A stretch of DNA of 42,299 bases from Terriglobia bacterium. GTDB taxonomy: Bacteria; Acidobacteriota; Terriglobia; Terriglobales; SCQP01. Each line of letters begins with the position of its first letter. Positions within the stretch are counted from its first letter, which is position 1. The notes under the pieces are model-generated. The model ran no database searches. It had not been told where the DNA came from and worked only from the letters and a program-made list of their open reading frames with translations. Below, one piece after another: positions 11,381 through 27,140 of this stretch. The stretch spans positions 1 to 42,299 of the forward strand of contig JAJPKR010000022.1 in the NCBI GenBank assembly GCA_021323595.1. Reading direction: 5' to 3'. A program made the translations under genes and the position numbers.

Positions 11381-12046
11381 TCAGCCGCGAACGTGAACCG
11401 TAACCGTATCGAAGGACAGCAAGACTTGGCCCGGGGTCGCTTCCCCCAGGATCGTGGCGGGCCGAAACACCGTCATCAGCAAGGCATTGTTCAAGCGCTC
11501 GATCAAAGCGGGATCATGGGGCCCGGCGAGGACGCGATAACCATCCACCCGGCCCAAGCTGTCGATATCCGCCTCGATGAGCAATGGACGATTGACTTCC
11601 ACGGGCGCCAGGTTCACGAGCGTAGGCGGCGCGGAGAGCGGCAGGGGCACGTCGGCCACGGCGGCGGCGGCCAAAGCGGTGTGGCCCATGGGACCGAAGA
11701 AGAGGGCAAAGACGCAAACCGCGCCCAGCACGCCCGCGACCACCGGCACCGCCAGCGCCCTGGCCCAGTTCTGGAGGCGCATCTGCCAAAACTCAATCAG
11801 TTCATGCCGGGCCGCATAGTGCGAGGCCCTGACCCGCAGCCGCAATGCCAAGTAGCGCGGCGGCGCCGGCGCCGGCAGTTGGCGCAACTCGGCGCTGACC
11901 GCGCGCAGTTGCCGCAAGCGCGCGGCACAGTTATCGCAGCTTTGCAGATGGCGCAGCAACTCGCATCGGCGCTCGGTGGACAGCTCGCCGTCGAGATAAG
12001 GCGAAAGATCGGCCGCGAGCGCGGCGCAAGAGTTCGCGTGCGTCAT
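11381..12046 (-). CDS. Anti-sigma factor with zinc-finger and TonB C-terminal-like domain
   Basis: A 221-residue membrane anti-sigma factor for the ECF sigma encoded just upstream. The N-terminal zf-HC2/ZAS-type motif is visible: YLDGELS at residues 17-23, then H33-x3-C37-x2-C40. One transmembrane helix follows near residues 95-120 (AVPVVAGVLGAVCVFALFFG). The exported C-terminal part has the beta-alpha-beta pattern of a TonB C-terminal domain (LIEADIDSLGRVDGYRVLAGP, then FRPA and VLLSF). The ATG at 12046 overlaps the sigma stop codon as ATGA, implying translational coupling; a further upstream in-frame start would lie inside the sigma gene and is not needed. The TonB-like tail may sense an envelope signal, which is inference. 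Confidence 0.82.
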   Translation of the reverse strand: MTHANSCAALAADLSPYLDGELSTERRCELLRHLQSCDNCAARLRQLRAVSAELRQLPAPAPPRYLALRLRVRASHYAARHELIEFWQMRLQNWARALAVPVVAGVLGAVCVFALFFGPMGHTALAAAAVADVPLPLSAPPTLVNLAPVEVNRPLLIEADIDSLGRVDGYRVLAGPHDPALIERLNNALLMTVFRPATILGEATPGQVLLSFDTVTVHVRG

Positions 12047-12774
12047 GGGTTGCCCCACTCCTCTTTGGAGACACACAGCGGCGCCGGCCGCACGCCGGCT
12101 TTGTCCTCGAAATCGCCCGGCAGGCGGCGCAGCCCAAGCTCGCGGCACAACGCCGGGTGCGCCAGCAAGCGCTGGCGCAGGATTTCCCGCCCGCGCATCA
12201 GGCGGGATTTTACGGTGCCGACGCGCACCCCGACGATTTCGGCGATCTCTTCGTAGCTGAAGCCTTCGATTTCGCGCAGCATCACGACGGTGCGATACGG
12301 CTCGGGCATTTGCTCCAACTCGCGACCGACGCGGCGGCGCGCCTCGGCCCGCATCGCTTGCTGCAGCGGCGATTCGCCGGGATCGGCGAGACGCTCCGCC
12401 AGCGGCGTGACCTGGCCGCCTTCCGGCGGCAGGTCGAGCGGCATTTCCTGCCGCTTATGACGGCGCCACCAGCGGCGATGATTGCTCGCCTCGTGCACGG
12501 CAATGCGATAGACCCATGTCTTGAGGCTGCTCTTTTGCTCGAAGCTGGCCGCAGCCCGGAAAATCTTCAGGAACACGTCTTGGAGAGCGTCGGCGGCGTC
12601 GGCGGGATCGCCCAGCATGCGGCACATCAAACCGAACAGCGGCTGGTGATAGATGGCGATCAAGTAATTGAAGGCTTCGACCGAACCGGCTCGCAGCTCG
12701 TGCACCAAAGCCTCTTCGCTCGCCTGCCAGGCGATCGAAGGCACATATTCGGCGGTGGACTCGTGGGCGCTCAT
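12043..12774 (-). CDS. ECF-type RNA polymerase sigma factor
   Basis: A 243-residue sigma-70-family group 4 factor. Region 2 is clear: ADAADALQDVFLKIFRAA (about residues 57-74) and SLKTWVYRIAVHEASNHRR (about 82-100). Region 4 has the helix-turn-helix GFSYEEIAEIVGVRVGTVKSRL near residues 180-201. The C-terminal extension is longer than in minimal ECFs. The ATG at 12774 with a purine-rich GGGGAAAG before it is chosen. An in-frame start at 12897 would lie upstream of the ECF-like promoter found at 12846-12874, so it cannot be used from that promoter. It is the first gene of the sigma / anti-sigma operon, with a 4-base overlap, and divergent from the PCYC protein gene. Confidence 0.92.
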   Translation of the reverse strand: MSAHESTAEYVPSIAWQASEEALVHELRAGSVEAFNYLIAIYHQPLFGLMCRMLGDPADAADALQDVFLKIFRAAASFEQKSSLKTWVYRIAVHEASNHRRWWRRHKRQEMPLDLPPEGGQVTPLAERLADPGESPLQQAMRAEARRRVGRELEQMPEPYRTVVMLREIEGFSYEEIAEIVGVRVGTVKSRLMRGREILRQRLLAHPALCRELGLRRLPGDFEDKAGVRPAPLCVSKEEWGNP

Positions 12775-12845
12775 CTTTCCCCACTGTACCGCAGGCCAGC
12801 GTCCGTCACCATGCGCGGACGGCCGGCTCTTGGGTTCTAACGAAC

Positions 12846-12874
12846 ACAGACGCCAGTGCGGGCAAGAATGTTCC
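12846..12874 (-). promoter_or_regulatory. Candidate autoregulatory ECF promoter of the sigma gene
   Basis: On the minus strand GGAAC (12874-12870) and GTCTGT (12851-12846) are separated by 18 nt, the arrangement typical of sigma-E-like promoters (GGAAC near -35, GTC near -10). Transcription would begin near 12839, about 65 nt before the sigma ATG. This fits the usual positive autoregulation of ECF genes and supports the 12774 start. Confidence 0.5.
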
Positions 12875-12892
12875 TGGTAGCGGCGGCTGACA

Positions 12893-12909
12893 TACAATAG
12901 GGCAGGAGG
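12893..12909 (+). promoter_or_regulatory. -10 hexamer and ribosome-binding site of the PCYC protein gene
   Basis: TACAAT (12893-12898) matches a -10 element and AGGAGG (12904-12909) is a perfect Shine-Dalgarno 6 nt before the ATG at 12916. No good -35 is visible. The element faces away from the ECF promoter of the divergent sigma gene. Confidence 0.45.
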
Positions 12910-12915
12910 TGCGGC

Positions 12916-13443
12916 ATGGGTCGCAAACTCAACGGGATCAAGCTCTTTTGGCGGATGATGGGGCTGATTATTTGCTTGGGGCTGGTTGTCGGAGGTGCTT
13001 CATGGGCGCAAACGACCCACGGCAGCCAGAAGGAGGGCCGTCATCAAGACTCGGCACCGGCGGAGCCGCCCGTCGTTCACGACGGCAATAGCCCTGCATA
13101 CCATGCCCAGCCGCCGCGCGGCCCCTTGCCGGCAACCCTAAACCCCAGCCAGTTCACCGATCCGCGGGTGCAAAACGCCTATGCCATGGCTGCGAAGATC
13201 AAGCGGGTGCTGTTCCAGGAGCCGTGCTATTGCTATTGCGACAAGGGTTTCGGCCACCACAGCTTGCTCGACTGCTATACCGGCAGCCACGCCGCCGAAT
13301 GCGAGGTCTGCCTCATGGAAGGCATCTATGCTTACCAGCAGACCAAATTGGGCAAGACGCCGGGTCAGATTCGGGCCGCCATCAAGCGCGGAGAATGGAA
13401 GAGCGTGAATCTGAACGATTACCTGAACCCGCCCAGATACTAG
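12916..13443 (+). CDS. Exported PCYC / CYCXC-motif protein
   Basis: A 175-residue protein with an N-terminal signal sequence or anchor (MMGLIICLGLVVGGASWA, about residues 14-31) and a Pro/His-rich linker. The conserved C-terminal domain begins near residue 80. Its hallmark is the cysteine cluster C104-Y-C106-Y-C108, followed by H114, H115, C120, C129 and C132, a set fit for metal binding or redox chemistry in the periplasm. The family is recognised in databases as PCYCGC-motif or CYCXC (seleno)proteins; in this copy all cluster positions are TGC cysteine codons, with no in-frame TGA. No biochemical function is established. A perfect AGGAGG supports the start. It is divergent from the sigma / anti-sigma operon, so membership of that regulon is a reasonable guess. 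Confidence 0.8.
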   Translation: MGRKLNGIKLFWRMMGLIICLGLVVGGASWAQTTHGSQKEGRHQDSAPAEPPVVHDGNSPAYHAQPPRGPLPATLNPSQFTDPRVQNAYAMAAKIKRVLFQEPCYCYCDKGFGHHSLLDCYTGSHAAECEVCLMEGIYAYQQTKLGKTPGQIRAAIKRGEWKSVNLNDYLNPPRY

Positions 13444-13624: not shown

Positions 13625-14800
13625 GTGCCCCAGCGCCGCCTATTCACTTCCGAATCCGTAACCGAGGGCCATCCCGACAAGATCGCCGACCAAATTTCCG
13701 ACGGCGTGCTCGACGCCGTCCTCGCGCAGGACCCCTACGGCCGCGTCGCGTGCGAAGCGTTGCTGACCACCGGCCTCATCGTCGTGGCCGGAGAGATCAC
13801 CACCCACGCCAAGGTGGACTACCAGCAAGTGGCCCGCGAAGCCGTGCGGCAGGTGGGCTACTGCGACGCGCGTTTCGGGTTCGATTGCGACACGTGCGGC
13901 GTGCTGATCAGCGTCCATCAGCAATCGAGCGACATCGCCCTCGGCGTGGACCGCGAGGGAGCGGGCGATCAGGGGATGATGTTCGGCTACGCCTGCGACG
14001 AGACGCCGGAACGAATGCCGCTACCGGTTTCGCTCGCGCACCGGCTCACGCGCCGTCTTTCGGAGGCGCGCCGCAGCGGCGAACTCGATTTCCTCCGCCC
14101 CGACGGCAAGAGCCAGGTCACCGTGGAGTACGTCGAGGGGCGGCCGGTCCGCATTGACTCCGTAGTCGTCTCCACCCAGCATTCCGAGGCCATCAGCACC
14201 GAAGACCTGCGCGCGGCGGTGAAGGAGCGGGTCATCGCGCCGATCCTCCCCGCCGACATGACCGATCGCAACACCAAATATCACATCAACCCCACCGGCC
14301 GCTTCGTCATTGGCGGGCCCATGGGCGATACCGGCGTCACCGGCCGCAAGATCATCGTGGATACCTACGGCGGCATGGGCCGCCATGGCGGCGGCGCGTT
14401 TTCCGGCAAGGATCCGAGCAAGGTGGATCGCTCGGCGGCCTACATGGCGCGCTACCTCGCCAAGAACATCGTGGCGGCGGGGTTGGCCCGGCAATGCGAG
14501 CTTCAGCTCGCTTACGCCATCGGCGTGGCGGAGCCGGTCTCGGTGCTGGTGGATACGTTCGGCACGGCTACGGTGGTTTCGGAAGAGAAGATCGCGGCGG
14601 CGGTGCGCGAATGCTTCTCGCTGACACCGCGCGGCATCATCGAGAGTTTGCAGTTGCGCCGGCCGATCTACCAGAAGACGGCGGCGTTCGGTCACTTCGG
14701 CCGCAGCGAGCCGGAGTTCACTTGGGAGCGGGAAGACAAGGTCGAAGCGTTGCTGGCCGCCACCGCCGGCAGCGCGCTGGCGGGCGCGGACCGCCGCTAA
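13625..14800 (+). CDS. metK: S-adenosylmethionine synthase (methionine adenosyltransferase)
   Basis: A 391-residue enzyme forming S-adenosylmethionine from methionine and ATP. All family motifs are present: [16 protein letters not shown] at residues 11-26 (H16, D18), [16 protein letters not shown] near 113-128, and [20 protein letters not shown] near 257-276. Length is standard. The start is GTG at 13625, where homology begins ([11 protein letters not shown]), and no better start lies close by. TldD follows after 35 bp and TldE overlaps TldD, so metK-tldD-tldE may be one unit. The leader upstream contains repeated hairpins of unknown role. Confidence 0.97.
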
Positions 14801-20153: not shown

Positions 20154-20207
20154 CTAGGGCGCGGGGTTCGAACGCGCTCGGACGATGGGCCTGGGGTTCG
20201 CGCCTAG
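20154..20207. terminator. Inverted repeat between convergent uxaA and eda
   Basis: CTAGGGCGCG (20154-20163) can pair, with one bulge, with CGCGCCTAG (20199-20207). Together they bracket the 51-base gap between the two convergent genes, and the right arm includes the eda stop codon. The interior has direct repeats of GGGGTTCG. There is no T-run, so bidirectional termination is only a possibility. Confidence 0.25.
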
Positions 20208-20878
20208 CGCATGCCGGCTGCCGCTTCCGGCTCGCGCGCGCGCCGCACCGCCGCGAGGAACTGCCGCGCGGATTCGGTGATGGAGGCGGTGTCGTTGCGG
20301 GCCAGAGCGGCCGCCGAGATCAGTTCGCTTCCCACGCCCAAGGCCGCGGCGCCCGCGCGCAAGTAAGCGGGGACGGTTTCCAGGCTGACGCCGCCGGTGG
20401 GGATCATCTCGACCTGGGGCAGCGGCGCCTTGAGCGCTTTCAAATAACTCGGGCCGCCCACCTGGCCGCAAGGGAAAATCTTGACGAAATCGGCGCCGGC
20501 GCGCCAGGCCGCGATGACCTCGGTCGGCGTCAATGCGCCCGGCATCACCACCGCGCCGCTCGGCCCCGCCAGCGCCGTCACCGCGGCGTCAAAGCCGGGA
20601 CTGACCAGAAAGCGGGCGCCCGCCGCCAAGCACCGGCGCGCCGTGGCGGCGTCGAGCACGGTGCCGGCGCCGATCAGCAGCTCTTCTTCCCCGTACCGGC
20701 GGGCCAGGGATTCGATGGCCTCGAACGCTCCCGGCACGGTCATCGTCACTTCCACGACGGTGACGCCGCCGGCCCGCACCGCCTCCGCGGCGCGCACCGC
20801 CAACGCGGCCGATGCAGCGCGAATGACCGGCACGATGCCAATGGCGACGATCCGGGCGCGAATCTCCTCTCGCTGCAT
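20204..20878 (-). CDS. eda: 2-keto-3-deoxy-6-phosphogluconate (KDPG/KHG) aldolase
   Basis: A 224-residue class I aldolase cleaving KDPG to pyruvate and glyceraldehyde-3-phosphate, the last step of the uronate branch of the Entner-Doudoroff pathway. Catalytic features are seen: E43 in VVEVTMTVPG, the GAGTVLD strand near residues 71-77 and the Schiff-base lysine K133 in DFVKIFPC. The ATG at 20878 is chosen. A TTG seven codons further up would overlap kdgK and adds only a Gly-rich stretch. The kdgK stop lies 10 bases upstream, so this is the last gene of the minus-strand galacturonate unit. Confidence 0.93.
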   Translation of the reverse strand: MQREEIRARIVAIGIVPVIRAASAALAVRAAEAVRAGGVTVVEVTMTVPGAFEAIESLARRYGEEELLIGAGTVLDAATARRCLAAGARFLVSPGFDAAVTALAGPSGAVVMPGALTPTEVIAAWRAGADFVKIFPCGQVGGPSYLKALKAPLPQVEMIPTGGVSLETVPAYLRAGAAALGVGSELISAAALARNDTASITESARQFLAAVRRAREPEAAAGMR

Positions 20879-20888
20879 GCCGCCGCCG

Positions 20889-21983
20889 CTAGCGCGCAAT
20901 GCGCGCGCCCACTCCTTTCATGAGATTGAGGACCTCGGGCAGCGTCGCCATCGAGGTATCGCCCGGCGTCGTCATGGCGAGCGCGCCGTGCGCGGCGCCG
21001 CACTCGACCGCGCATTGCGGCTCGCGGCCGGTCAGGAGGCCGTAGATCAAGCCCGAGGCGAAGGAGTCGCCGCCGCCGACGCGGTCGAGGATTTCGAGGC
21101 CCGGGCGCTCGGACGCCCGATAGCACTTCCCTTCCATATACAGCACCGCGCCCCAGTCATTGCGAGACGCCGTCACCGCCCGCCGCAGGGTAGCGGCCGC
21201 TGCTCGCACAGGGAATCGTTTGGCGACCGTCTCCAACATGCGCTCGAAGCCATCGGCATCGAATCGGGTCAGGTGTTCATCGGCGCCGGGCACGCTGAAC
21301 CCCAAGGCGGCCGTGTAGTCTTCTTCGTTGCCCACCAGCACGTCCACGAGCGGGACGAGTTCGCCATTGACCTCTTGCGCGCGCTTCTGGCCGCCCTGGG
21401 CGCGCCACAGCGATTCGCGATAGTTCAGGTCGTAGGAGACTATGGCGCCGTGGCGGCGCGCGGCTCGCATCGCCGCCGCGGCCACGGCAGGCGTGGAGTC
21501 GGACAGCGCGCAGAATATGCCACCCGTGTGGAACCAGCGCGCGCCCCAGCGACCGAAAATTTCTTCCCAATCGAAATCGCCGGGCCGCAGTTGCGAAACC
21601 GCGGTATGCCCGCGGTCGGAGCAGCCCAGCGGGGCGCGAACGCCGAAGCCCCGCTCCGTGAAGTTCAGGCCATTGCGCGCCGCGCGGCCGACGCCGTCAT
21701 AGGGCACCCATTTGACCAACGATTGATCCACGCCGCCCTGCAAAATCAGATCTTCCAGCAAACGGCCGACCGGGTTGTCGGCAAAGGCCGTGATGAGTCC
21801 GGCGCGCAGGCCGAAGCAACGGCGCAATCCTCGCGCCACGTTGTATTCGCCGCCCCCTTCGCAGACTGCGAAGCTGCGCGCGGTCGCCACCCGCCGCTCG
21901 CCGGGGTCCAGGCGCAGCATGACTTCACCCAACGCTAGAATGTCCCAGCGGCAACTTTCAGAAGACCGGAAACTTAGCGGCAT
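20889..21983 (-). CDS. kdgK: 2-keto-3-deoxygluconate kinase (PfkB family sugar kinase)
   Basis: A 364-residue ribokinase/PfkB-family kinase, assigned as KDG kinase (KDG + ATP to KDPG) from family and context. The N-terminal ALGEVMLRLDPGERR segment and the EGGGEYNVARGL substrate motif (about residues 42-53) are followed by the C-terminal signature DRVGGGDSFASG with catalytic base D306. Length is slightly above the usual 310-345. A GTG at 21986 directly precedes the ATG at 21983 and either could start translation; GAGGG inside the end of the transporter gene serves both. It adjoins the transporter stop codon, so translation is probably coupled. Confidence 0.88.
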   Translation of the reverse strand: MPLSFRSSESCRWDILALGEVMLRLDPGERRVATARSFAVCEGGGEYNVARGLRRCFGLRAGLITAFADNPVGRLLEDLILQGGVDQSLVKWVPYDGVGRAARNGLNFTERGFGVRAPLGCSDRGHTAVSQLRPGDFDWEEIFGRWGARWFHTGGIFCALSDSTPAVAAAAMRAARRHGAIVSYDLNYRESLWRAQGGQKRAQEVNGELVPLVDVLVGNEEDYTAALGFSVPGADEHLTRFDADGFERMLETVAKRFPVRAAAATLRRAVTASRNDWGAVLYMEGKCYRASERPGLEILDRVGGGDSFASGLIYGLLTGREPQCAVECGAAHGALAMTTPGDTSMATLPEVLNLMKGVGARIAR

Positions 21984-21986
21984 CAC

Positions 21987-23321
21987 TCAAACACCCTCGA
22001 CTGCCAGCTGCGCCGGCGTCAAACGCGGCACGATGAGGTGAATCAGGAGCAGGGCGGCCAAATAGGCGCTGGCGGCCAGCGTGAAGACGGGAGCGTAGCT
22101 GTGCGTCGTGTGCAGCAAGAAGCCCACGAAGACGGCGATCAGCGCGCCGCCCACGGCGCCAAAGAACTGGCCGATGCCGACCACCGAAGCCACGGCCGGC
22201 TTGGGGAACATGTCGGAGGCCAGCGTGAATAGATTCGCGGACCAGCCTTGATGCGCCGCCGTCGCCAGGCTGATCAGGCCCACCGCGCCCCACAAGCTGC
22301 GCACGCCCGCAGTCAACACAATGGGGACGACCGCCAAAGCACAGATCAGCATCGCCACTTGCCGGGCGCGGTGCCGCGGCCAGCCCGCCTTCATGAAGCG
22401 CGCCGGCAGCCAGCCGCCCACCACGCTGCCGACCGTGGCGGCGTTATAGATCACGACTACCGGCAGCCCGAGCTTGGCGACGGAAAGCGCCGGCAGATGA
22501 AATTTTGAAGTGAGGAACGGCGGCAACCAGAAGAGGAAGAACCACCAGATCGGATCGGTCATGAACTTGCCGAGAACGAACGCCCAGGTCTGGCGATGCG
22601 GCATCAACTTCCGCCACGTGACCTTCGCCGCCGGCACCGGCGGGTCGCTCTCGATATAAGCTAATTCCGCCCTTGACAGGCCCTTCTTCTCGCGCGGCGG
22701 CCGGTAAATCGCAAGCCAGCAGATCACCCAAACCGCGCTAAAGACGCCAGTCAGCAAGAAGCCGAACTGCCAGCCTAAGCGGGCCGCGACGGCCAGCACC
22801 ACCAGCGGCCCGATGGTTGCGCCCACGTTGGTTCCGGAATTGAAGATGCCGGTGGCCAGCGCCCGCTCCTTGTTCGGGAACCACTCCGCTACCACCTTAA
22901 TGGCGGCGGGAAAGTTGCCGGCCTCGCCGATGCCCAGGAAGAACCTCGCGACGCCGAACTCCGCCGCCGTTCGCGCCAACGCGTGTCCCATGGCCGAAAG
23001 CGACCAAATGGCGATGGAGGCGGCATAACCGAGGCGGGCGCCGATCCGGTCAATGAACCATCCCATGCCGATCGCGCCCAAGGCATAGGCAATTTGGAAA
23101 GCGCTGACGATATAGCCGTACTGGAGATCGGTCCAGCCGATCGTGTGCTGCAGCGTGGGCTCGAGCAAGCCCAGCACCTGCCGATCCACGTAGTTGATCG
23201 TGGTGGCGAAGAAAAGCAGGGCGCAGATGCCCCAGCGGTAAGCACCGCCGGCGCCGATTTCCCGGCCGGGCGGCGGCGGCACGCCGGCTGCGGCCGGGCG
23301 GGCGGCTGAGGGAAGGTCCAT
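21987..23321 (-). CDS. exuT: Hexuronate-type MFS transporter (ACS family, ExuT-like)
   Basis: A 444-residue major facilitator with about 12 transmembrane helices. The N-terminal NYVDRQVLGLLEPTLQ motif (about residues 43-58) and the GWFIDRIGARLGY loop 2-3 signature are typical of the anion:cation symporter family that includes ExuT. GIGEAGNFPAAIKVVAEWFP follows near residues 131-150. It would import galacturonate or glucuronate across the inner membrane with protons. It sits between the SDR gene (34 bp upstream) and kdgK (adjacent), inside the uronate unit. Substrate is inferred from neighbours. Confidence 0.87.
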   Translation of the reverse strand: MDLPSAARPAAAGVPPPPGREIGAGGAYRWGICALLFFATTINYVDRQVLGLLEPTLQHTIGWTDLQYGYIVSAFQIAYALGAIGMGWFIDRIGARLGYAASIAIWSLSAMGHALARTAAEFGVARFFLGIGEAGNFPAAIKVVAEWFPNKERALATGIFNSGTNVGATIGPLVVLAVAARLGWQFGFLLTGVFSAVWVICWLAIYRPPREKKGLSRAELAYIESDPPVPAAKVTWRKLMPHRQTWAFVLGKFMTDPIWWFFLFWLPPFLTSKFHLPALSVAKLGLPVVVIYNAATVGSVVGGWLPARFMKAGWPRHRARQVAMLICALAVVPIVLTAGVRSLWGAVGLISLATAAHQGWSANLFTLASDMFPKPAVASVVGIGQFFGAVGGALIAVFVGFLLHTTHSYAPVFTLAASAYLAALLLIHLIVPRLTPAQLAVEGV

Positions 23322-23355
23322 AGGCGTCCGTTCTACCGCGGATTGAGGGCGACGA

Positions 23356-24126
23356 TCATTGATTCACGCCGCTGGCCAAGAACCCGCCATCCACGGCCAA
23401 GACGTGTCCGGTCACGAAGCTGGCGGAGTCCGATGCTAAGAATACCGCCGCGCCCACCAATTCCTCCAAATTTCCGAACCTGCGCATGGGCGTGCGCAGC
23501 AGAAACTCCTGGCCGCGCGGGCCGTCGAGCAGGCGGGCGTTCAAGTCCGTGCGAAACACTCCCGGCGCGATGGCGTTGACGCAGACGCCGCGCGGCGCCC
23601 ATTCGATCGCCAGCGAACGCGTCAGCGACGCCACCGCCGCTTTGCTCGCGGCATAGGCGGCGACCTCGAACAAGGCGACGAAGGAGGAGAGCGAAGCGAT
23701 ATTGATGATGCGGCCATACCCGCGCTCCAGCATGGAGGCGCCGAAGACCTGGCAGCCGCGGAGGGTGCCGTTCAGGTTGGTTTCGAGGATATCGCGCCAG
23801 TCACGCTCGGGAAAATCCAGCGTCGGGCCGCGCTGCGTGCGGCCGGCACAGTTGACCAGGATATCGATCCGGCCGAAGCGCTCGAGCACGGCTTGGCGCA
23901 GCGCCAGCAGGCTGTCACGACTGGTGACGTCACAGGTCTGCTCCAGCGATTGCTTGCCCAAGTCCCGCACCGCTTGCGCCGCCGCTTGCACCAGATTCGC
24001 GCGGCGGCCGCTGGGAACGACGTCGGCGCCCGCCTGCGCCAGACCGCGAGCGAGCGCGAAGCCGATGCCCGAGGTGCCGCCGAGGACGACCGCTGTCTTT
24101 CCGGTTAGATCCAGCAATGTGCTCAT
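23356..24126 (-). CDS. SDR-family oxidoreductase, candidate tagaturonate reductase
   Basis: A 256-residue classical short-chain dehydrogenase. The nucleotide site is GGTSGIG at residues 16-22, with NCAG near 92-95, the catalytic serine near 145 and Y158-x3-K162. The C-terminus has the usual VTGHVLAVDGGF. Sequence type resembles gluconate 5-dehydrogenase / KduD-like SDRs. Between UxaC and UxaA the pathway needs a reductase converting tagaturonate to altronate, and no UxaB or UxuB (long-chain mannitol dehydrogenase family) is present in the window. This gene, placed between uxaC and the transporter, is therefore the best candidate; that role is inferred. KduD or another sugar-acid dehydrogenase role is the alternative. 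Confidence 0.85.
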   Translation of the reverse strand: MSTLLDLTGKTAVVLGGTSGIGFALARGLAQAGADVVPSGRRANLVQAAAQAVRDLGKQSLEQTCDVTSRDSLLALRQAVLERFGRIDILVNCAGRTQRGPTLDFPERDWRDILETNLNGTLRGCQVFGASMLERGYGRIINIASLSSFVALFEVAAYAASKAAVASLTRSLAIEWAPRGVCVNAIAPGVFRTDLNARLLDGPRGQEFLLRTPMRRFGNLEELVGAAVFLASDSASFVTGHVLAVDGGFLASGVNQ

Positions 24127-24134
24127 CTTTCGTT

Positions 24135-24167
24135 ACCGGCTGCCGGGCAGGCCACCGGCTGCCGGGC
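24135..24167. repeat. Short direct repeat between uxaC and the SDR gene
   Basis: A 14-base unit, ACCGGCTGCCGGGC, occurs at 24135-24148 and again at 24154-24167 in the 73-base gap inside the uronate unit. Each copy contains a small CCGGCNGCCGG palindrome. It could form an intercistronic mRNA structure. Function unknown. Confidence 0.4.
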
Positions 24168-24199
24168 GCGGCGGGGGAGCCGGCAACGGCCGCGCCATG

Positions 24200-25639
24200 C
24201 TAGGCGCTGGCCCGCCGCGAGGGCGCGGCCTCCGACGCCAGTGGAAAGCCAAAATAGCGCGCGGCGTTTTCGTAGCATAGGGCGCGGATCATGGGCCCGA
24301 CGAGGTTTTCCTCGTTGGGCAGGTCGCCAGACTCGATTTCGCCGCCGATCAAGTTGCACAGAATGCGGCGAAAGTATTCGTGGCGGGGATAGGACATGAA
24401 GGAACGGGAGTCCGTCGCCATGCCCACGAATCGAGAGAGCAGCCCGCAATTGGAGAGCGCGTTCAACTGCCACTCCATCCCTTCCTTCTGGTCCAGGAAC
24501 CACCAGGCGCTGCCCAACTGCAACTTGCCCGGCTGCTCGCCGCCCTGGAAGTTGCCGAGCAGCGCAGCGAACGCGTAATTGTCGGCGGGGTTGAGGTTAT
24601 AGAAGATCAGCTTGGGCAGACGGTTCTCGCACTCCAGCGCGTCGCAGTAGGAATTCAATGCGACGATATGCGGCCAATCGCCAATGGAGTCGAAGCCGGT
24701 ATTCGGCCCCAGCGCGCGATGCATGCGCGCGTTGCCGTTGCGCAGCGCCCCCAGGTGCAACTGCTGCACCCAGCCCTTTTCGGCGTTCAGGCGGCCAAAA
24801 AAAAGCATGAGGAAAGCAGCGAACCCCACTGCCTCGCCCGCATCGAGCGCCTGGCCGCCGCGCAGCTTGAGGAAGAGGCTTTCCGCCTGGGTCGCGCCGA
24901 TGGGAGGCCAGGGACAAGCATCCAGGCCGTGGTCGGACGCGCGGCAGCCCAACTCGTGGAAGGCGTTATGGCGGCGCTCCAGGGCCTCGAGGAAGTCGGA
25001 CAAGCGGCGTATCTCGAGGCCGGCTTGCGCCGCCAGACGGCCGGTCCAGGCGTTGAAGGCCGCCGCGTCGTGGGTCTGGAGCGCCGCATCGGGCCGGAAG
25101 GTGGGGAAGACCTTGGTCGCCAGCGCCGACTGGCGCAGCTTGACGTGGTGCTCGAGGGAATCGGCGGGATCGTCGGTCGTCGCCAGCGCGCGCACGGAAA
25201 AGGCGCGCAGAATGCCCCACGCGGAAAAATCCTCGGAGCGCAGTCTATCGTTGGCGCGCCGCCAGATCGCGGGCGCGCTCGCGGCGTCCAGCAAATCCTT
25301 GACGTCGAAATAGCGGCGCAGCTCGAGATGCGTCCAGTGATAGAGCGGATTGCGCAGCAACTGCGGCACGGTGCGCGCCCACGCCAGGAACTTCTCGTAG
25401 GGCTCGGCGTCGCCGGTGCAGTAGCGCTCGTCAACGCCGTTGGCCCGCATGGCCCGCCACTTGTAGTGATCGCCATCCAGCCAGATCTCGGTGAGGTTGC
25501 GGAAGCGCCGGTCGGCGGCGATCTCGGCGACCGGCAAGTGGCAGTGAAAATCCAAGATCGGCTGATTCGCGGCGTAGGCTTCGTAAAGGCGCCGGGCGGC
25601 GCGGTTGTGCAGCAAAAAGGCGTGGTCAAGAAAGGCCAT
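24200..25639 (-). CDS. uxaC: Glucuronate/galacturonate isomerase
   Basis: A 479-residue uronate isomerase of the amidohydrolase-like superfamily, converting D-galacturonate to tagaturonate (and glucuronate to fructuronate). It is collinear with E. coli UxaC: the metal-binding DFHCHLP motif near residues 30-36, GDHYKWRAMRANGV near 56-69, NPLYHWTHLELRR near 94-106, GWVQQLHLGALRN near 286-298, and FVGMATDSRSFMSYPRHEYFRRILC near 400-424 carrying the conserved Asp. The ATG at 25639 matches the family N-terminus; an extension further upstream is possible but would overlap the GH28 gene. It follows that gene by 10 bp in the same unit. Confidence 0.95.
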   Translation of the reverse strand: MAFLDHAFLLHNRAARRLYEAYAANQPILDFHCHLPVAEIAADRRFRNLTEIWLDGDHYKWRAMRANGVDERYCTGDAEPYEKFLAWARTVPQLLRNPLYHWTHLELRRYFDVKDLLDAASAPAIWRRANDRLRSEDFSAWGILRAFSVRALATTDDPADSLEHHVKLRQSALATKVFPTFRPDAALQTHDAAAFNAWTGRLAAQAGLEIRRLSDFLEALERRHNAFHELGCRASDHGLDACPWPPIGATQAESLFLKLRGGQALDAGEAVGFAAFLMLFFGRLNAEKGWVQQLHLGALRNGNARMHRALGPNTGFDSIGDWPHIVALNSYCDALECENRLPKLIFYNLNPADNYAFAALLGNFQGGEQPGKLQLGSAWWFLDQKEGMEWQLNALSNCGLLSRFVGMATDSRSFMSYPRHEYFRRILCNLIGGEIESGDLPNEENLVGPMIRALCYENAARYFGFPLASEAAPSRRASA

Positions 25640-25649
25640 CGGCGAATGA

Positions 25650-27140
25650 TTATCCTCGCACGGCGGCCGGCGCCGCACCCGCGGCGGCGGCCGGCCGGCC
25701 GTTGATCATGACGTCTCGCAACGTTAAACCCCGCACATCGCGAATGATATCGGGTTCGGCGGCATGGTCGAACCGGCAGCGCACGAGAGCCACATCTTCG
25801 ATCGGCGCGCGCGGCAAGCCGCGCAGCTCGAGCGCGCGCCGGCAGGCTTCGACCCGCATGCCTTCGACGCGCACGTGGCGGCACACGGGCGTGTAGGGTC
25901 CCGCGGCGCCCTCCTCGTACAAGAAATCGATCGTCACCGCCGCTTGCGCGGTCCGGGAAACCGCCAGGGCGCGCGCTTGCACGTTTTCGATCCGGCCGCC
26001 GCGCATGGCGTTGTTCTTCACCCGCAGCGCCGTCATCACCGCCGGCCCAATCCGGCATTGCTCTACGAAGATGGCGCGGGCGTCGCCGCTGATTTCGCTG
26101 CCGATGGTGACCGCGCCATGGCCGCGCTCCATGCGGCAACGGCGGATCAGGTGGTCGCGCGCGGGCACATGCAGGCGGCGGCCGTCGGCGTTGCGGCCGC
26201 TCTTGACCGCGACGCAATCGTCGCCGGTGGCGAAACGGCAGTCCTCGATCAGCACGCCGCCGCAGGACTCGGGATCGCAGCCATCGGTATTGGGCCCGTC
26301 GCTCGCGACATCCAGCCCGCGGACGATGACATTGCGGCAGAGCACCGGGTGCACGTGATACATCGGCGAGCGGCGCAGGCGCACTCCCTCGATGAGCACG
26401 TTCTCGCAGCGGTACGGCTGGATGAACTGCGGGCGCAGATAGTGGCCCGGGCCAAAAACCCGCCGCGCGACCGGCACGCCCTGTTCCGCCATTTGCCCGA
26501 GGCGGATGCGATCGGCGAACTGCGTGCGCGGCGGATAGGAGGCGGCGGGCCCGGCGGGAGCGCGCTCCATGCCATGGGCCGCGCCGGGCCGCCGGCCGGC
26601 CCAATTCCACCAATGCTGCCAGTCCGCGCCGCCGTCGAGCGTTCCCTGCCCGGTGATCGCGATGTTGCTCGCTCCATAGGCGCGCACGAGCGGCGAATAG
26701 TTCATCAACTCGATGCCCTCGTAGCGGGTCAGCACGAGCGGATAGCGGCTGGGATCGGGCGCAAAGCGGAGGGTGGCGCCGGCCGCGAGATGCAATTCCA
26801 CATTCGACAGCAGCACGACGGGTCCAGTCTGGAACTCGCCCGGCGGCACCAGCACCCGCCCGCCGCCGGCACGATGGCAAGCGGCGATGGCGGCCGCAAT
26901 CGCCGCGCTCGCGTCGCTAGCCCCGCTGGCGCGGGCGCCGAAGCGCGTGATGACGAACTCCCGGCGGGGAAAGCGCGGCGGCTTCAGGGAATCGGCCCAG
27001 GCCGCGAGGCGTTCCCAATCCGTTCCGACGGAGGCCAGGCTGAATCCCGGGCGGCCCGCCCAGGCCCGCGTCGCGCCGCAGGCCGCGAGCGCGGCCGCGC
27101 CGCCGAGAAAGCGCCTGCGGTTCGCCTCCGTCGCCGGCAC
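25650..27140 (-). CDS. GH28 polygalacturonase-type glycoside hydrolase
   Basis: A 496-residue exported right-handed beta-helix enzyme that should hydrolyse alpha-1,4-galacturonosyl bonds in pectin. The N-terminus has a Tat-like signal (NRRRFLGGAAALAAC, residues 8-22). All GH28 active-site motifs are present: N283-T-D285 (NTDGCD), D307-D308 (GDDCVAVKSG), H341 (GHGAVTIGS) and R373-x-K375. These give the three catalytic aspartates and the conserved histidine. The start is GTG at 27140, only 6 bases after the stop of the preceding GH28-like gene. An exo-acting mode is common for such bacterial enzymes, but I cannot settle it here. Confidence 0.9.
   Translation of the reverse strand: MPATEANRRRFLGGAAALAACGATRAWAGRPGFSLASVGTDWERLAAWADSLKPPRFPRREFVITRFGARASGASDASAAIAAAIAACHRAGGGRVLVPPGEFQTGPVVLLSNVELHLAAGATLRFAPDPSRYPLVLTRYEGIELMNYSPLVRAYGASNIAITGQGTLDGGADWQHWWNWAGRRPGAAHGMERAPAGPAASYPPRTQFADRIRLGQMAEQGVPVARRVFGPGHYLRPQFIQPYRCENVLIEGVRLRRSPMYHVHPVLCRNVIVRGLDVASDGPNTDGCDPESCGGVLIEDCRFATGDDCVAVKSGRNADGRRLHVPARDHLIRRCRMERGHGAVTIGSEISGDARAIFVEQCRIGPAVMTALRVKNNAMRGGRIENVQARALAVSRTAQAAVTIDFLYEEGAAGPYTPVCRHVRVEGMRVEACRRALELRGLPRAPIEDVALVRCRFDHAAEPDIIRDVRGLTLRDVMINGRPAAAAGAAPAAVRG

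Follow-up and report, generated by a model that had tools for sequence, protein, structure and literature searches.

No function is given for the protein family named PCYCGC (PF13798) or OS_HP4_CYCXC (NF041379) in the available parts of two selenoprotein reviews, both of which list OS_HP4 as a UxxC protein (PMC13188914, PMC9312934), or of a lipoprotein survey (PMC13068155). The survey, as far as its available text goes, leaves the Bacillales PCYCGC lipoprotein without a function, and the neighbour that it describes is an iron-type, not a copper-type, substrate-binding protein (PMC13068155). In the literature searched, no paper, in the parts available, ties the family to copper; coverage of subscription journals was thin and prior proposals are possible. 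A precedent for such a role is provided by the CutF-like proteins (DUF2946), small exported Cys proteins which, in the available part of the description (PMC8456105), lie beside multicopper oxidases and near copper efflux genes, as several homologues of the gene studied here also do. By that same description, CutF-like proteins carry one CXXXC/CXXC motif, whereas CYCXC proteins combine a CxCxC cluster with two His and a CxxC. CutF-like proteins also have a C-terminal PP motif (PMC8456105, available part); the protein studied here ends in NPPRY by happenstance, and the PP is missing in two relatives that align up to this end and read NPSRY and DPGRY.

Here, we analyse a member of this family from the phylum Acidobacteriota. 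Our reading, which we consider to have about an even chance of being right, is that it is a small, all-helical, exported thiol protein, probably distantly akin to CcmH (a thiol protein that takes part in making cytochromes), that would handle Cu(I) in the cell envelope, and that the sigma/anti-sigma pair beside its gene is unrelated to it.

The window gene and its family

The window, that is, the whole stretch of DNA analysed, comprises 42,299 nucleotides from a Terriglobia bacterium (contig JAJPKR010000022.1). The features referred to below are these:

11381..12046, minus strand: zf-HC2 anti-sigma factor gene (PF13490, 30.0 bits; cut-off 22.2)
12043..12774, minus strand: ECF sigma factor gene, divergent from the CYCXC gene (Pfam/NCBIfam matches)
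12848..12875, minus strand: ECF-type promoter AGGAAC-N15-GGCGTCT, directed towards the sigma gene, 74 bases from its ATG (motif)
12893..12898, plus strand: TACAAT, possible sigma-70-type -10 element for CYCXC (judged by eye alone)
12904..12909, plus strand: AGGAGG, ribosome-binding-like, six bases 5' of the CYCXC ATG (read in the sequence)
12916..13443, plus strand: CYCXC/PCYCGC-family gene, Cys form, 175 aa (profile matches)
12916..13008, plus strand: signal-peptide-like N-terminus, about residues 1-31 (judged by eye on the translation)
13126..13419, plus strand: conserved PCYCxC domain, with an all-helical AlphaFold2 model (profile match)
13225..13239, plus strand: CYCYC cluster, C104, C106 and C108 (alignment conservation)
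13255..13311, plus strand: H114, C120, H125 and the C-terminal CxxC, C129-C132 (alignment conservation)
13625..14800, plus strand: presumably an S-adenosylmethionine synthetase (MetK) gene, judging by the sequence; downstream of the CYCXC gene and recurring in the window's family

By its profile matches, the window gene belongs, as an unexceptional member, to an already named family: its ORF scores 36.1 bits with PF13798 (PCYCGC; cut-off 25) and 104.9 bits with NF041379 (OS_HP4_CYCXC, CYCXC family (seleno)protein; cut-off 90), and it is the sole family match in its own genome. The protein is like the rest of the PF13798/NF041379 family in its Cys/His pattern and in export, as well as in matching over the cut-off. 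An earlier note, made from the sequence alone, had described a small exported protein with a C-Y-C-Y-C cluster, three more Cys and two His, encoded divergently from an ECF sigma/anti-sigma pair; its coordinates, 12774-13443, extend from the start of the sigma gene to the stop of CYCXC. The description holds: the 175-aa ORF encodes CYCYC, three further Cys (C120, C129 and C132) and two conserved His (H114 and H125), and the profile matches confirm the identity of the divergent pair. H115, a third His, shows no conservation. Profile searches of fetched loci give the family a common frame of PCYCxC, GH, Cys, His and CxxC, and all eight of its Cys/His positions (CxCxC, GH, Cys, His, CxxC) are present in the window protein. 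A simple rule detects no lipobox in the N-terminus.

The conservation of these eight residues was counted in 80 aligned Cys-form sequences, the window protein plus 79 homologues out of a dereplicated 102, with Sec forms removed beforehand: C104, C106, C120, H125, C129 and C132 are kept in all 80 sequences, and C108 and H114 in 79. Across 60 genomes, the window's own included, NF041379 finds a match in 54, over the cut-off in 51, with 58 matches in total; among 297 genomes of the phylum (own genome and members of its order included) a family match is found in 65 and lies over the cut-off in 40. A hydrophobic segment is encoded 5' of the domain in 139 of 149 loci, and a crude rule finds a lipobox-like site in 19 of the 149. 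One genome has a second CYCXC copy (L034:9767-10069), in which the third Cys of the cluster is lost (CFCGS). A search of plasmid proteins with the window domain as the query returned 33 records at 28-37% identity, and a search with a Priestia homologue returned 18, partly overlapping the 33. Members were seen here in Acidobacteriota and, on plasmids, in Bacillota, Burkholderiaceae and Thermomicrobium; phages gave no family match. A sequence search of the PDB gave 19 matches to ankyrin and to designed proteins of ankyrin type (best E 0.006), which we regard as chance.

The neighbouring sigma and anti-sigma genes

The ATG of the sigma gene lies 141 bases from that of the CYCXC gene, and the pair is of the same kind as known systems of an ECF sigma factor with a zf-HC2 anti-sigma factor. 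The earlier note suggested that the CYCXC gene and the pair form one metal- or redox-responsive envelope module. A survey of neighbourhoods for ECF sigma genes, however, reveals no conserved linkage. In 40 neighbourhoods of relatives, taken from genomes matching NF041379 (in six of which the gene caller had missed the CYCXC gene, then placed by tblastn), no relative of the sigma gene stands beside CYCXC; a weak sigma match lies several genes off in two of them (L048, L059), and another sigma-like gene, recognized by eye, lies a few genes away in three (cluster c30). Nor does a sigma gene stand beside CYCXC in 108 further loci, viewed five genes to each side and in part drawn from the same genomes; among these loci, L134 alone shows a weak match to sigma, at a distance of five genes. 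The sigma factor itself is matched in 20 of 21 genomes, own included, and in the relatives it is located away from CYCXC: the two genes are linked in none of the 17 relatives that have both, lie on separate contigs in 15 and, where found on one contig (G005, G021), are 137 kb and 2.4 Mb apart.

The promoters are distributed in the same manner. A GAAC...GTC site in a loose ECF-type form, the pattern being chosen from known ECF promoters and counted without a shuffle control, lies 5' of all 20 sigma orthologues examined; the strict site lies 5' of 17 of these 20, as against none of 41 CYCXC genes on their own strand (background, 0.0016 per 600 bases). Counted over the window's own genome with at most one mismatch, ECF-type sites number 16, versus 13 for a reversed control, and offer no discrimination. 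On the absent adjacency and the promoter distribution, we reject the sigma linkage as a conserved module. Of the earlier proposal, an involvement in metal or redox processes is supported by the copper islands around some homologues and the resemblance to CcmH described below; the tie to the sigma factor is not supported.

Could the CYCXC gene nonetheless be a target or an effector of the pair? Anti-sigma factors of the zf-HC2 type can act as sensors of redox state or metal, and the divergent adjacency in the window would suit such an arrangement. However, the counts of adjacency, linkage and strict sites given above all argue against it, as does a different gene, sigma-28-like by eye, that follows CYCXC at a distance of two or three genes in 11 loci from other classes, and we consider such a role very improbable. 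Membership of the CYCXC gene in the regulon of the pair is not supported by linkage or promoter. Rather, the pair looks self-contained and adjacent to CYCXC through a local rearrangement in the window lineage; we judge the ECF sigma and zf-HC2 genes to be unrelated neighbours, and the sigma neighbour of the window gene looks incidental. The eleven loci with the sigma-28-like gene nearby fall, by eye, within the set L183-L208.

Probable kinship with CcmH, and selenocysteine forms

The AlphaFold2 models of the window domain (13096-13440; pLDDT 91.6, pTM 0.85; model 1) and of a distant family member (pLDDT 91.1, pTM 0.84; model 2) are both confident and mainly helical. Foldseek returned nothing significant for either model, the best E values being 2.9 (CcmH) and 3.5 (GlnR). 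Ranked by Z score, the CcmH periplasmic domains 2kw0 and 2hl7 turn up for both: for model 1 these two entries lead, with Z 3.8 each over 65 residues (3.4 and 4.4 Å), and for model 2 2kw0 leads, with Z 5.0 over 67 residues (3.2 Å), followed by 2hl7 at Z 4.6, with CcmH there tied with CueR and GlnR (Z 4.6-4.1), which Foldseek ranks first. By Z score, the helical periplasmic domain of CcmH (PF03918) comes first or joint first for the CYCXC models.

Comparison of profiles points in the same direction. The CcmH set consisted of 21 domains from 21 of 30 fetched loci (seven of a CxCGC/CxCGGC form, eight canonical and six of an APCC form), and hhalign of PCYCGC against CcmH, in six pairings of three overlapping PCYCGC alignments with two overlapping CcmH alignments, gave 66.7, 61.5, 71.0, 84.7, 85.3 and 82.8%. 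As controls, the best-scoring of 30 neighbour families gave 22%, Bfd-like sequences at most 2.6% and zf-HC2 at most 5.7%. Kinship with the latter two, represented by 12 and 23 sequences pattern-cut from 25 loci each, is thus unsupported by hhalign. Of the CcmH subsets, the canonical domains by themselves reached 38.9-59.7%, and the APCC domains 3.5-19.2%. None of 150 column shuffles reached the CcmH-PCYCGC score, and none exceeded 23.5; an earlier 100 column shuffles of the alignment A5 had included at least one odd score (142 and 134 with two queries), with a 95th percentile of about 15. PF03918 is absent from the 18 Pfam families matched, at E up to 1, by any of the 80 aligned members.

The CxCGC form of CcmH found in Acidobacteriota is collinear with the PCYCGC profile over the CxCGC motif, the Cys region that follows and the C-terminal helix, and two further Cys come soon after the motif in six of the seven CxCGC/CxCGGC domains. 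In L231, L239, L243-L246 and the match from 1501 in L247, all from Acidobacteriota, CcmH-family proteins have CxCGC or CxCGGC and more Cys in place of LRCxxC. The differences are equally apparent: CcmH has LRCxxC, a motif absent from the window protein, which has PCYCYC, whereas the CYCXC family has CxCxC and an additional stretch containing GH, Cys, His and CxxC; moreover, unlike CcmH, CYCXC proteins appear by eye to have no membrane helix after the domain. Among the window neighbours of CYCXC there are, by eye, no ccm genes. Taken together, the two AlphaFold models and the profile comparison give weak but concordant indications of a likeness to the periplasmic domain of CcmH, and the CYCXC family is probably a distant relative of CcmH, not a member.

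The earlier note was also right to see a Cys/His cluster of metal or redox type and a family with selenoprotein forms. Besides the NF041379 match of the window gene over the cut-off, an in-frame TGA occupies the codon for C129, the first Cys of the C-terminal CxxC, in eight related loci (L175, L177, L179, L202-L206). The window gene has TGC here, at 13300, and hence Cys at the position that is Sec in the described OS_HP4 form. The TGA forms are spread over several lineages of Acidobacteriota. In L176, flagged by a script as a ninth TGA form, the TGA is an ordinary stop, and a weak TGA fragment (G291:C86, E 7.5e-4) is unconfirmed by the family profile (L209). Each of the eight genomes with TGA forms has at least one of these two: SelB, which passes the cut-off in seven, and a tRNA-Sec, which scores above 60 bits in seven. 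SelB is, however, also over the cut-off in six of eight genomes with Cys forms and, therefore, the Sec machinery is no predictor of the form of CYCXC. The window genome is among the six: it has SelB (346 bits, cut-off 242; G000:C14:13762-15669) and a tRNA-Sec (69.7 bits; G000:C64:32613-32704) despite its Cys-form copy. Folding of SECIS hairpins gave z < -2 for two of seven TGA forms (L205 left out), but likewise for two out of four Cys forms, one of them the window gene (z -3.16).

Copper context and a proposed role of the protein

Sixteen plasmid loci were read, 15 of them annotated (H25 has no annotation). In 12 of the 15 (H1, H2, H3, H5, H6, H15, H18, H22, H26, H27, H33 and H48), the CYCXC homologue has copper or heavy-metal genes no more than 6-8 kb away, although these 12 are not independent and represent about six arrangements by eye, five of them, in Burkholderiaceae, being near-copies of one island. 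Metal genes are lacking within the 6-8 kb shown in H36 and H51, and H50 is doubtful, with no annotated gene at the match and a cation diffusion facilitator 7 kb away; nine further Priestia records with a copy close to that of H36 lie outside the loci counted. In control slices of 50 kb, one each from six of the same plasmids at hand-chosen positions, copper or heavy-metal genes occur in one of the six, a TerC-family gene in one slice not being counted. Genes near the plasmid homologues encode, among others, CueR, a multicopper oxidase, a heavy-metal P-type ATPase, RND efflux proteins, CopC/CopD, a metal-sensitive regulator with CopZ and a four-helix Cu-binding protein. Thiol-redox genes also stand beside the 12 positives: DsbD in seven, CcdA in two and DsbA in two.

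In Acidobacteriota few loci have a similar context. Blast searches with 24 copper-island query proteins against 149 loci (the window, its relatives and other Acidobacteriota, some genomes being represented twice) gave hits in 25, of which about five were judged to have a clear copper context (L062, L149, L163, L172 and L174). The Pfam families matched in L172 and L174, two acidobacterial copper islands, include Cupredoxin_1, MerR, DUF326 and DUF305 as well as a metal-sensitive repressor and P-type ATPases, one of which has HMA and YHS. The window genes gave no hit with any of the 24 queries; this, like the low number of acidobacterial loci with a clear copper context, counts against a copper role. 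In another locus (L178:8683-10290) the CYCXC gene overlaps a DsbB gene followed by a gene for a DsbA-like thioredoxin, in an operon-like arrangement, and DsbD-type matches lie 3.5-8.9 kb from CYCXC in nine acidobacterial loci. Several homologues are thus embedded among copper genes; proximity to copper genes does not, of itself, establish that the CYCXC protein binds copper.

In the mechanism that we propose, the CYCXC protein would bind, hold or pass on Cu(I) in the cell envelope; the CxCxC cluster, the two His and the C-terminal CxxC would act as ligands or redox thiols, and reductases of the Dsb/CcdA type would keep the thiols reduced. The sigma/anti-sigma pair would be an unrelated envelope-stress regulator, brought beside CYCXC by rearrangement. 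We infer the identity of the metal, the chemistry and the partners of the protein. We likewise infer that the window copy would do the same job as the plasmid homologues, and its copper role is uncertain because its identity to them is 28-37% and its own locus is without copper genes. A more far-reaching version, which we regard as possible rather than probable, is that PCYCGC/CYCXC is an unrecognized branch of the CcmH superfamily turned into an envelope Cu(I) relay, repeatedly recruited to plasmid copper islands, chromosomal in most genomes of the window's order and, in some Acidobacteriota, using Sec as one ligand or redox thiol, where it would then be a copper-handling selenoprotein. If a CcmH-like copper role is correct, it would provide a testable function for a family met here both in Acidobacteriota and on bacillotal, burkholderiaceous and Thermomicrobium plasmids, and would link resistance to copper with selenoproteins and the thiol-redox machinery.

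The main rival to the handling of Cu(I) is a pure thiol-redox role. The protein would then be a metal-free, CcmH-like thiol-disulfide oxidoreductase for envelope proteins such as cytochromes and cuproenzymes, its CxxC (UxxC in the Sec forms) would be catalytic, and the copper neighbours would reflect the attack of copper on thiols. Redox selenoproteins have Sec in place of the first Cys of a CxxC, the position at which TGA occurs in the eight relatives, and the resemblance to CcmH, the DsbD, CcdA and DsbA/B neighbours on plasmids and in L178, and the DsbD-type genes of the nine acidobacterial loci all fit this role, as does the UxxC listing of the family in the available part of a 2026 review. 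The CxCxC cluster and the two His are, however, conserved as well as the CxxC, beyond what a dithiol enzyme needs, and copper ATPases and Cu-storage proteins would be unusual partners for a general oxidoreductase; we think this role unlikely, though far from negligible. It is also conceivable, but improbable, that the protein is an envelope protein with structural zinc or another metal, whose site only holds the fold and takes no part in copper traffic. The Cys/His pattern would fit zinc too, and the copies in the window's order lie among housekeeping genes that vary by group (names by eye), yet the copper-island context of the plasmid and some acidobacterial homologues speaks against a site of this kind. 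The handling of Cu(I) is the reading that we prefer.

Other neighbours were considered as clues to function and set aside. A MetK homologue lies directly beside CYCXC in five of 14 loci of the window's own family, and one gene off in a sixth; this linkage, recurring within that family, we regard as housekeeping synteny. Pterin dehydratase, GlmU, DegP-like, PA2778/PA2779-like and PAS kinase neighbours, named by eye, vary by group and offer no clue. In L105-L143 a run of genes for a PA2779-type protein, a PA2778-type C39 peptidase and a TPR protein recurs downstream of CYCXC (by eye), and a PAS-type histidine kinase gene lies one or two genes downstream in 19 of the 26 loci L183-L208 (by eye). 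In the window itself, positions 20204-25678 hold what appears by eye to be a uronate-catabolism-like cluster, with genes for an aldolase, a sugar kinase, a transporter, an SDR and a UxaC-like protein.
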